A stretch of 64,000 nucleotides of DNA from Nitrospirota bacterium (GTDB lineage: Bacteria; Nitrospirota; Thermodesulfovibrionia; Thermodesulfovibrionales; JdFR-85): NCBI GenBank assembly GCA_015492645.1, contig WGER01000031.1:1-64000 (forward strand), written 5' to 3'. Under the pieces are notes generated by a model that did not search any database, was not told the origin of the DNA, and saw only the letters and a list, made by a program, of their open reading frames with translations. Positions 6,608 through 23,224 of the stretch are shown here, piece after piece; position 1 is the first letter of the stretch; each line of letters begins with the position of its first letter. The translations under genes and the position numbers were made by a program.

Positions 6608-7039
6608 ATGGCTGCTAAGAAGAAGGGGGCTAAACCTCGAAAGAGGTGCAAGGAAGACAAACAGCAGAGTTCTGAAGACCGTCAGAGAAGAATCCTGGAG
6701 ATCAGAAAGAGGTTGGTTGAAGAAAGGGAGAGACTCCTTCAGGAGGCAGAAGCAGCACTCAATACCCTGCCGGAGGAGGGGGCAGCCTTCCCGGATATGG
6801 GTGACCAGGCGACTGCAGATCTTGACAGGAGTTTCATGTTGAGATTGAGAGGCAGAGAGCAGAAACTCCTGAAAAAAATAGAACTTGCTATAGAGAAGAT
6901 CGACAATGGCACATACGGAATCTGTGAGGTCTGTGGCTGTGAGATAGGGATAAAGAGGCTGGAGGCGAGGCCTGTCACCACCATGTGTATAGACTGTAAG
7001 ACCGAGCAGGAAGAAGAAGAAAAACTGAGAGAGGTCTAA
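6608..7039 (+). CDS. dksA: DksA/TraR-family zinc finger regulator
   Basis: CEVCGCEIGIKRLEARPVTTMCIDCK zinc finger. Confidence 0.9.
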   Translation: MAAKKKGAKPRKRCKEDKQQSSEDRQRRILEIRKRLVEERERLLQEAEAALNTLPEEGAAFPDMGDQATADLDRSFMLRLRGREQKLLKKIELAIEKIDNGTYGICEVCGCEIGIKRLEARPVTTMCIDCKTEQEEEEKLREV

Positions 7040-7749
7040 AGGCCCTTTATATATCTTACTAAGGAACGGATCTGATCGATGGTCAAGGGGCCACCCTTTA
7101 TTGTTCCAAATCCGGGCATTGGTGTGCCAGGTACACCTTCCTCAATTGCCTTCCTGAGGACCTCTTCCGGTAGTCTCCTCAATTTGTCAACCGGACTTGC
7201 TATTTTGCCCCTCTGGTGACACATGAGACAGTCTGCCCAGAAGAGTTGAGCTCCTGATTTCCCTATGCCTCTGTCCACATGACACTGCCTGCAGGGTGTC
7301 CTGAAGATCTGGTCTGCCGGATAATTGAGGGTATGATACACATCTATAACATCTGCATACAACTTTATTACAACCAGGGGCCTTCTGGGATCATTGCTCT
7401 GGATCTGGACGGTCTTTGTTATCCTCCCCCTCTTTCCTTTTGTCTCCACCTTCACCTCGATCTCTGTTTCTCCACCAGGGCCTATGTGGTCTGAACTGAC
7501 CACAGTTGCAGTACAGCCTCAGGAGGAGGTCACCTTCTGGATTACCAGTGTCTCGGTCCCTATATTGAAGACCTTAAAGGTGTGTTCAAGGACATCGCCC
7601 TGCTTGACCTCTCCAAAGTCGTACTCTTCCTCCGAAACCATTATCTCAGGACCCTGTGCATGAGAGGTACCTATAGCAGATAGGAAAAAGGAGACGGAGA
7701 GCACAAATAGCACTATAGATTTAATATGAGTTACCACCTCTCCTCTCAT
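7036..7749 (-). CDS. DUF1573-domain + c-type cytochrome (two CXXCH) exported protein with in-frame UGA; candidate selenoprotein
   Basis: ORFs 7519..7749 and 7036..7503 are one reading frame interrupted only by TGA at 7521-7519: ...FNIGTETLVIQKVTSS-[UGA]-GCTATVVSSDHIGPGGETEIEVK...CRQCH...CLMCH...MPGFG; N-terminal signal peptide. Confidence 0.75.
7485..7504 (-). promoter_or_regulatory. Candidate bacterial SECIS stem-loop
   Basis: UGUGGUC-AGUUCA-GACCACA, 7-bp perfect stem; loop G is 23 nt after the UGA. Confidence 0.6.
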
Positions 7750-7808: not shown

Positions 7809-9185
7809 ATGGCAGATATACTTGTAGTGGATGATGAACAGAGACAGAGAAGTATCCTCAAGACGATCCTCTCTGAAGAGGGCTACAGGGTATATGAGGC
7901 CTCTACAGGAGAAGAGGCCCTCAAGATTCTGAAGGAGAGGGCCCCTGACCTGGTCCTCACTGACCTGAAGATGCCAGAGATGGACGGACTGCAGTTGTTG
8001 AAAAAGATAAGGGAAGCAGGGGGGAACCAGCCACCGGAGGTCCTCATAATGACCGCCTATGGGACCATCGCCTCTGCCGTGGAGGCAATCAAAAACGGTG
8101 CCTTTGATTACCTCACAAAACCCCTTGATAGAGAGACCCTCCTCATAAAGATAAGACAGGCCCTCCAGAGACAGCAACTGCTGAGGGAGAATATCTCCCT
8201 GAGAGAGGCCCTGTATGATAAGTTCAGTCTGAATGGATTGGTAGGCCGGTCCACCTCCATGCAAAATGTGATAGAGATGGTAAAGAAGGTGGCACCGACC
8301 AATGCCACTGTACTCATAGTGGGCGAGAGCGGGACAGGAAAGGAACTTGTGGCAAGGGCGATCCATTACCTGAGCCCCCGCAAAAGCAGGCCCTTCACTG
8401 CAATAAACTGTGCGAGTATCCCAGAAAGCCTCCTTGAGAGCGAGTTGTTTGGCTATGAACCCGGTGCATTCACTGGGGCCACCACAAAAAAGAAGGGGCT
8501 TTTTGAGGTCTCTGATGGTGGTACAGTATTCTTAGACGAGATTGGTGATATGCCCCTGCAGTTGCAACCAAAACTGTTAAGGGTCCTTCAGGATGGCGAG
8601 TTGAGGAGACTCGGAGGTCAGTCCCCAATAAGGGTTGATATCAGGGTGCTGGCTGCCACTCATCAAGACCTGGAGGACCTGATAGACAGGGGTCTGTTCA
8701 GAGAGGACCTCTACTACAGGCTCAGGGTCTTCACCATAAAGCTGCCTCCACTCAGAGAGAGGAGAGAGGATATCCCTCTTCTTGCAGAACACTTCCTGCG
8801 TAAATACAACCAGGAATTCGGTAAAAGGATAGAGGGCTTCTCCCGGGATGCGATGGAAGCGCTCAACAGATATCACTGGCCTGGCAATGTAAGGCAACTG
8901 CAGTCAGTGATTGAAAGGGCTGTGATAATATGTGATTCCGGCCTCATAGAACTCTCACATATAAAAGATGAACTCATAGAGAGGAAAAAAGGGGTAATAG
9001 ATATAGAGATACCTGATGAGGGGATAGTCTTTGAAGAACTGGAGAAGGAGTTGCTGAAGAAGGCGATGCAGAAGGCTAATTATGTTGCAAAGAGGGCCGC
9101 TGAACTGCTCGGGATGAGTTACAAGACCTTCTGGTACAGGTGGGAGAAATTCGGGCTGGGCAAAAAGGCCGACTCTGAGGAGTGA
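7809..9185 (+). CDS. Sigma-54-dependent response regulator (NtrC family)
   Basis: Receiver DLVLTDLKMPEMDG, AAA+ GESGTGKE and GAFTGA, C-terminal HTH. Confidence 0.95.
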   Translation: MADILVVDDEQRQRSILKTILSEEGYRVYEASTGEEALKILKERAPDLVLTDLKMPEMDGLQLLKKIREAGGNQPPEVLIMTAYGTIASAVEAIKNGAFDYLTKPLDRETLLIKIRQALQRQQLLRENISLREALYDKFSLNGLVGRSTSMQNVIEMVKKVAPTNATVLIVGESGTGKELVARAIHYLSPRKSRPFTAINCASIPESLLESELFGYEPGAFTGATTKKKGLFEVSDGGTVFLDEIGDMPLQLQPKLLRVLQDGELRRLGGQSPIRVDIRVLAATHQDLEDLIDRGLFREDLYYRLRVFTIKLPPLRERREDIPLLAEHFLRKYNQEFGKRIEGFSRDAMEALNRYHWPGNVRQLQSVIERAVIICDSGLIELSHIKDELIERKKGVIDIEIPDEGIVFEELEKELLKKAMQKANYVAKRAAELLGMSYKTFWYRWEKFGLGKKADSEE

Positions 9186-21615: not shown

Positions 21616-21715
21616 ATCAAAGTCTGTAAAAGATGTCCTGGGGGCGTTGACAAAGAAGATCTATTTAGATATAATATCCCAGATTTTAAATTTTAAAAAA
21701 TAAAAAGGGGATGAA

Positions 21716-22126
21716 ATGCAGAGGCGCGGTTTTTTAAAATTACTGGCTGCTTTTTTTACAAGTATCCTGAGCGGTTCCTTTCTTTACTCCTTTCTGAGAT
21801 ATCTGGCTCCCCCTTCAAAGTCCAGTGAAGCATCAAAGATTATAGTCGCCAAGGCAGAGGTCGCAGAAGGACAGGCGAAGGAGATAATTATCAACAATAC
21901 CCCTGCAATCGTCATCAATCGTCCGGGGAAAGGATATATTGTCCTTTCAAGGGTCTGCACCCATCTTGGTTGTCTTGTGAAGTATGAACCAGACAGGAGC
22001 AGACTCTTTTGTCCCTGCCATGCTGGTGTATACAATCTGGATGGGAAGGTGATTTCTGGACCTCCACCAAAACCACTACCCAAGTTTCCCTTCAGGGTGG
22101 AGGGTGAAAATATAGTGATAGGGTGA
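21716..22126 (+). CDS. Rieske [2Fe-2S] protein
   Basis: CTHLGC ... CPCHAGVYNLDGKVISGPPPKPL. Confidence 0.93.
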   Translation: MQRRGFLKLLAAFFTSILSGSFLYSFLRYLAPPSKSSEASKIIVAKAEVAEGQAKEIIINNTPAIVINRPGKGYIVLSRVCTHLGCLVKYEPDRSRLFCPCHAGVYNLDGKVISGPPPKPLPKFPFRVEGENIVIG

Positions 22127-22129
22127 TTT

Positions 22130-23224
22130 ATGTGGAAAGGTATCGTTGAATGGCTTGAGGTAAGGATTGGACTGAAGGACTTTCTTAGGGAACAGTTTAC
22201 AGAGTATCGAGTCCCTCCTGATATCAATATCTTTTACACCTTAGGGATAGTGGCCTTCTTTGCTTACATAATTCAGGCTGTAACGGGCTTCTTCCTGCTC
22301 CTTTATTACATCCCTCACTCTGAACATGCCTTCCAGAGTGTGCAGCATATCATGACCGAGGTCCCTTACGGATGGCTTATAAGATTAATGCATGTAGTGG
22401 GCAGCAATTTGATGGTAGCGGTCGTCTTTCTTCATCTGATATCTGTATTTATAATGAATAGTTATAAGAAACCGAGAGAATTGACATGGGTTGTTGGGGG
22501 GTTACTCCTTTTAACCACCCTCACCTTCTGCCTTAGTGGATATCTACTGCCATGGAGTCAATTGAGTTTCTGGGCCACCACTATAGTGACCAATCTACCC
22601 ACAGCCTTCCCCTACCTCGGCGACTGGCTCGCATATCTGCTGAAGGGTAGCGAACAGGTATCAGGTACTACCCTCAATAGATTCTTTGCCCTGCATGTCG
22701 CATTTCTTCCACCTATTCTTGTAACCCTTTTTGGTTTACATCTGTTTCTGGTAAGAAGGATTGGAATATCCAGGCCGCCTTTCAGTAAGAACTATCCCCC
22801 TCCATCATCATGGACGCAATACAGGCACGAGGAGTATCCTGAAGGAATCCCCTTTTATCCCTCCTTCTTTATAAAGGAGATGTACATGGTTGTCCTTTAT
22901 ATGGTGATAATGTTCTTTGTAATAACCTTTATGCCTACCCTGTTTTTACCAGAGGAGGCGAGTATCCCTGCTGATCCCTATACTACCCCTTTACATATAA
23001 AACCTGAATGGTATTTCCTCGCACCCTATCAGATGTTGAAACTCATTCCAAACAAGTTTCTGGGTATCAGCATCCAGTTGGTGCTCCTTTTTATCTTTCT
23101 CTTCTGGCCCTTTTTCGATACCTCCGATGAGAGAGACATTAGGAAACGGCCTTTACTGCTTACTGTATTCTTTCTGACAATTGGTGTCTGGATAATTCTT
23201 ACAATATGGGGTAAGTACTCATGA
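22130..23224 (+). CDS. Cytochrome b (bc-type complex)
   Basis: LMHVVGSNLMVAVVFLHL, GYLLPWSQLSFWATTI, LHIKPEWYFLAPYQML. Confidence 0.95.
   Translation: MWKGIVEWLEVRIGLKDFLREQFTEYRVPPDINIFYTLGIVAFFAYIIQAVTGFFLLLYYIPHSEHAFQSVQHIMTEVPYGWLIRLMHVVGSNLMVAVVFLHLISVFIMNSYKKPRELTWVVGGLLLLTTLTFCLSGYLLPWSQLSFWATTIVTNLPTAFPYLGDWLAYLLKGSEQVSGTTLNRFFALHVAFLPPILVTLFGLHLFLVRRIGISRPPFSKNYPPPSSWTQYRHEEYPEGIPFYPSFFIKEMYMVVLYMVIMFFVITFMPTLFLPEEASIPADPYTTPLHIKPEWYFLAPYQMLKLIPNKFLGISIQLVLLFIFLFWPFFDTSDERDIRKRPLLLTVFFLTIGVWIILTIWGKYS

Follow-up and report, generated by a model that had tools for sequence, protein, structure and literature searches.

The window analysed here is a stretch of 64,000 nucleotides from a Nitrospirota genome (G000; 2.43 Mb in 91 contigs). 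On its minus strand, two open reading frames, 7519..7749 and 7036..7503, form one frame at 7036-7749 whose sole break is a TGA triplet at 7521-7519. Re-reading of the frame gave the same joined protein of 237 residues as the preliminary description of this DNA had reported. We annotated 7036..7749 (stop included) as the complete coding sequence of a DUF1573-diheme cytochrome c selenoprotein of 237 amino acids, with selenocysteine (Sec) as residue 77. A Shine-Dalgarno-like AGGTGAGG is located just 5' of the ATG at 7749.

The features of the protein, all on the minus strand, begin with an N-terminal signal peptide (residues ~1-31, 7657..7749), recognized in the sequence and modelled as a helix at residues 2-27, from which the periplasm is the predicted destination. 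It is followed by a DUF1573 domain (residues 38-126, 7372..7638; PF07610, E 3.8e-24, 85 bits against a cut-off of 26.1) with a HYDIN/ASH/PapD-like Ig fold. DUF1573, a domain of unknown function, is spread over many phyla and frequently contains an SCGCT motif. Around codon 77 (7519..7521) the sequence reads TSS-U-GCTATVVSS, giving a Sec-Gly-Cys (UGC) motif at residues 77-79 (7513..7521). The C-terminal part contains heme-binding motifs CRQCH (residues 153-157, 7279..7293) and CLMCH (residues 174-178, 7216..7230) and a Cytochrome_CBB3 domain similar to cbb3-type subunit III (residues 164-234, 7048..7260; PF13442, E 5.2e-9, 36.7 bits against a gathering threshold of 27). The signal peptide, DUF1573-like domain and heme motifs of the preliminary description were thus recovered by sequence and by Pfam. 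All 26 aligned homologues retain both CxxCH motifs and an MP motif without change, which suggests that the C-terminal part binds two c-type hemes. Nearly invariant His139 (7333..7335) is a candidate distal ligand of heme 1, and Met211 of the MP motif (7117..7119) of heme 2, so that one heme would probably have bis-His and the other His/Met ligation.

An AlphaFold2 model built on the 26 homologues (mean pLDDT 91.5, pTM 0.67) places the UGC motif, in agreement with the alignment, in a turn between predicted strands 68-75 and 80-84. The best fold match of the N-terminal domain was 2QSV (E 4e-10, 25% identity), which was also matched by sequence search, and HYDIN/ASH/PapD-like Ig folds were matched as well.

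Two plus-strand genes flank the fusion gene. A convergent DksA/TraR-type gene (6608..7039), which overlaps the fusion stop by 4 bases, is a conserved neighbour in the window's family and is probably unrelated to the mechanism of the fusion. A divergent NtrC-type response regulator gene (7809..9185) has homologues adjoining the fusion in three close relatives (L071-L073), making four genomes with this arrangement. Neither neighbour is informative on function.

Decoding of the UGA at codon 77

Two open stretches joined by a TGA are not rare in the window, where eight such frames of at least 230 codons were counted compared with 0-1 in shuffled sequences, and therefore the claim for Sec rests on comparison. 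Six other frames of this kind were dismissed as selenoprotein candidates because no selenoprotein-like motif surrounds the TGA. The TGA-joined frame at 21704-23221 looks like a gene end with the next gene following in frame, an ATG lying two codons past the TGA, and is not a selenoprotein.

A full-length fusion with a single TGA at the codon 77 site was found in 37 of 197 relative genomes, and fusions without the TGA have Cys at this site wherever the full-length sequence was read. Among the 26 aligned homologues, the column contains TGA in 22 and TGC in the remaining four, with no other codon. Since the TGA is common to many independent assemblies, a sequencing error, which had been considered at the outset, is ruled out. 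The dN values ranged from 0.04 to 0.40, with dS far higher in every pair, and were alike 5' and 3' of the TGA. Purifying selection is therefore comparable on both sides of the UGA, bearing out the earlier argument that the open frame past the TGA speaks against decay.

Starting 15 nt past the UGA, a SECIS-like hairpin (7485..7504, minus strand; columns 18-37, numbered from the first base of the TGA) has a 7-bp stem and an AGUUCN apical loop. In 31 sequences, six of the seven pairs show two-sided changes and the hairpin is 94.5% paired; the covariation of 0.438, compared with 0.225 in shuffles, was reached in 0 of 500 shuffles, and the signal was lost when the partner was shifted by 1-3 columns. 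The loop AGUUC has a G within its first two positions. All 33 loci use AGT for the Ser in the loop, and so do 22 of 22 aligned genes, whereas AGT makes up 11% of the other Ser codons of those genes.

The source genome encodes a tRNA-Sec with a TCA anticodon, SelB (385.6 bits), SelA (633.4 bits) and SelD, the last from a gene with one in-frame TGA of its own. The preliminary description had read the UGA as Sec and had proposed a search for selA, selB, selC and selD and an alignment of homologues; all four genes were found, and the alignment showed only UGA or Cys at codon 77. The features expected of a bacterial selenoprotein, namely an open frame past the UGA, a SECIS hairpin, Cys homologues, and SelA, SelB, SelD and tRNA-Sec(UCA), are present together. 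With this machinery, the UGA/Cys-only site, the hairpin and the selection in its support, Sec at residue 77 of the fusion is very likely.

A frame that is open except for one stop is what a fresh nonsense mutation usually looks like, and the TGA could have been a true stop followed by a relic, or a sequencing error. Such decay or error is refuted by the comparative data: the same TGA in 37 genomes, the covarying hairpin and a dN far lower than dS on either side of the TGA are beyond chance, and the Sec machinery is complete, which leaves this reading a negligible probability. It is also highly improbable that the UGA is decoded as some other amino acid, either as Cys by a tRNA-Sec-like tRNA-Cys or through general UGA reassignment. 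A long-armed tRNA-Cys of this type is present in the source genome, and in some deltaproteobacteria selC*-type tRNA-Cys can have a UCA anticodon (PMC7609411). However, the anticodon here is GCA, which reads UGC/UGU; a proper tRNA-Sec(UCA) is present with SelA, SelB and SelD, and the remaining frames joined across a TGA in the window resemble normal gene ends.

Several other Sec-related genes were observed in the source genome. The tRNA-Cys mentioned above (G000:C19:14446-14537; L002:1501-1592), with its GCA anticodon and long variable arm, scores 63.4 bits with the tRNA-Sec model and agrees with the selC*-type tRNA-Cys previously reported from Nitrospirae (PMC7609411). SelD, whose gene with the in-frame TGA is at G000:C82:106424-107338 (L067), is probably a selenoprotein itself. 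On contig G000:C23, a second DUF1573 selenoprotein candidate of ~480 amino acids (L056:1919-3361, plus strand) combines a carboxypeptidase-regulatory-like domain with two DUF1573 domains, each with an in-frame TGA (URLCT and UKRAT) and an AGUUC hairpin. Related two-TGA proteins are found in genomes G003, G004 and G006; a 2026 review lists one Sec for the DUF1573 selenoprotein family (PMC13188914).

Sec and Cys forms across Nitrospirota

Across the phylum (395 genomes), only the window's class had the UGA form, and the fusions of families f22, f23, f25 and f28 lack the TGA and have Cys where the site was read. The scan of genome contigs was based on a 12-row alignment with patterns that favour SCGCTA Cys forms, so that it says little about Sec forms elsewhere. 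On a tree of 61 fusions, made by a quick method and with some Cys rows on long branches, three Sec/Cys changes were needed compared with 18.7 in shuffles. Of the 37 genomes with the UGA form, 36 gave a SelA match, compared with 5 of the 16 genomes from other Nitrospirota families that have the Cys form (Fisher p 6e-7, without correction for relatedness). The one UGA-form genome without a SelA match, G098, is 89% complete. Within the window's class SelA is nearly universal (175 of 197 genomes), which makes a co-occurrence test there uninformative; the contrast emerged only against other Nitrospirota families.

Some variants were noted alongside. Two loci of family f25 (L195 and L196) have the motif TCVY, in which the first Cys is kept and the second is absent. 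Many single-domain or tandem DUF1573 genes of the 197 relative genomes carry a TGA at the same site, and G046, G073 and G088 are near-complete genomes with TGA-bearing DUF1573 genes and no SelA match.

Gene context and proposed function

Clues to function came from the Cys forms. Of 13 Cys-form orthologues, 9 have a DsbA-like gene immediately upstream with overlapping start and stop, the junctions being ATGA, GTGA or a one-base overlap; these 9 belong to two families (6 of 6 f28 loci and 3 of 4 f22 loci). These partner genes encode DsbA-like thioredoxins (PF13462/PF01323) with a CPHC or CSHC motif; no DsbA-like neighbour was present in the examined Sec-form loci. DsbB was found in none of 22 sampled fusion-bearing genomes and VKOR was lacking in 20 of the 22, counts that cover fusion-bearing genomes only. 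DsbB is missing from many anaerobes. The Cys forms that overlap a DsbA-like gene, in a set of fusion genomes without DsbB and mostly without VKOR, are what is new here on function, and they give a likely thiol-redox context to the Sec-Gly-Cys motif, which the preliminary description had held to be plausibly redox-active.

Other gene arrangements were seen near fusions and DsbA-like genes. The source genome encodes DsbA-like proteins, one of which (G000:C41:22600-23115; L203) has an in-frame TGA, giving UPHC instead of CPHC, and adjoins a diheme cytochrome c peroxidase-like gene; this protein is a possible partner of the fusion. In an unclassified MAG, a Cys-form fusion (L084:5911-8630) lies directly upstream of genes for iron-sulfur and FAD/NAD subunits, with NiFe-hydrogenase-like genes further along. 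Hydrogenase-like genes are also located near the fusion in L074, L075 and L079, with the DksA gene in between.

The gene pairs, the motifs, the rhodanese and chemotaxis-receptor genes beside a Cys-form paralogue, the absence of DsbB in the 22 sampled genomes and that of VKOR in 20 of them together point to thiol chemistry coupled to heme. We propose, with a probability of about 0.5, that the fusion is an exported selenoprotein that relays electrons between periplasmic thiols and hemes, with a DsbA-like thioredoxin as the favoured partner. The UGA would be read as Sec via tRNA-Sec(UCA), SelB and the downstream hairpin, and the Ig-like DUF1573 domain would present the Sec-Gly-Cys pair in a turn, where it may cycle between selenol-thiol and selenenylsulfide in a two-electron step. 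The two c-type hemes suggested by the invariant motifs of the fused C-terminal part would take one electron each; a heme count of two matches the two electrons of one dithiol. In this manner the fusion would couple periplasmic thiol/disulfide chemistry to one-electron cytochrome transfer. Electrons are envisaged to pass from the DsbA-like thioredoxin through the UGC or CGC pair to the hemes, as the Cys-form gene pairs suggest, and the fusion could be a soluble substitute for DsbB or VKOR, perhaps reoxidising its DsbA-like partner. Both the partner of the Sec form and the direction of electrons are inferred. More tentatively, these Nitrospirota may use the fusion as the missing reoxidant of DsbA-like thioredoxins; the relay would be soluble, built on a selenol-thiol or dithiol pair and joined to a diheme cytochrome.

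A different substrate is conceivable, although we consider it doubtful: the selenoprotein might act on persulfide, polysulfide or a similar sulfur or selenium compound, and not on protein thiols, with Sec or Cys binding or attacking the compound and the hemes accepting or donating the electrons. A reactive chalcogen on an Ig-like fold beside cytochrome c is loosely reminiscent of SoxY/SoxXA, and SoxX is weakly matched by 3 of the 26 members. One distant Cys form stands in the run with iron-sulfur, FAD and NiFe-hydrogenase-like genes, and a Cys-form paralogue group adjoins genes for a periplasmic rhodanese and a chemotaxis receptor. The rhodanese pairing, however, belongs to the paralogue and not to the Sec clade, and the closer Cys-form families pair with the DsbA-like thioredoxin instead. 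The relay might also run in reverse, from the cytochrome through the UGC pair to a peroxide, a metal or an oxidised protein, in repair or detoxification. Sec often serves in reductive or peroxidatic chemistry, and the Sec-containing DsbA-like (UPHC) gene of the source genome lies beside a peroxidase-like gene, but no peroxidase or reductase gene is conserved beside the fusion in the examined loci, and we regard the reverse direction as unlikely.

Comparison with known systems

Sec in DUF1573 is already known from the OS_HP2 family, which was listed from work on Olavius algarvensis symbionts and has been detected in ocean metagenomes (PMC2398784, PMC9312934, PMC13188914). OS_HP2 (NF041425, PF07610) shares with the fusion the same domain, the UGC motif and the exchange of Sec and Cys. 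All 26 aligned homologues matched NF041425 at E<=0.001, and the window protein scored 86.8 bits, below the curated cut-off of 100. What the fusion adds is the diheme cytochrome c part, which is unmentioned for the OS_HP2 family in the selenoprotein reviews consulted. In these reviews, PMC13188914 among them, DUF1573 is a table row, and a fusion of Sec-DUF1573 with diheme cytochrome c is not named (the 2007 OS_HP2 source paper lies outside this scope). Of the unusual combination of DUF1573, heme and Sec put forward in the preliminary description, the diheme fusion thus stands as the less usual part, whereas Sec-DUF1573 was known. The fusion illustrates how Sec genes escape annotation: its score does not reach the NCBIfam cut-off, and ordinary gene calling truncates it at codon 76. 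The ExtKL family and an octaheme cytochrome of the tetrathionate reductase family are c-type cytochromes listed as selenoproteins (PMC13188914), but they are other families for which no DUF1573 domain is named. The crystal structure 2QSV, of a DUF1573-like protein of P. gingivalis, shares the Ig-like domain; the match does not include the heme part.

With DsbB and VKOR the fusion would share the proposed role of passing electrons from DsbA-like thioredoxin to the respiratory chain. DsbB and VKOR are quinone-linked membrane proteins, whereas the fusion is predicted to be exported and heme-based and has no sequence relation to them; its domains are DUF1573 and cytochrome c, outside PF02600 (DsbB) and PF07884 (VKOR), so that the analogy is functional only. 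In the mitochondrial Erv1-Mia40 system, a cysteine pair takes up electrons from a disulfide carrier and passes them on to cytochrome c. The likeness to the fusion, a cysteine pair that delivers to cytochrome c, is again an analogy only: Erv1 has FAD and a separate cytochrome c, whereas the fusion has its pair on an Ig-like domain joined to the cytochrome. The Sec motif with two hemes, and Cys forms tied to a DsbA-like gene, give the motif a testable function in thiol/disulfide electron transfer. If this is true, electrons from disulfide formation would be delivered directly to c-type cytochromes, giving a third type of solution alongside those of DsbB and VKOR.
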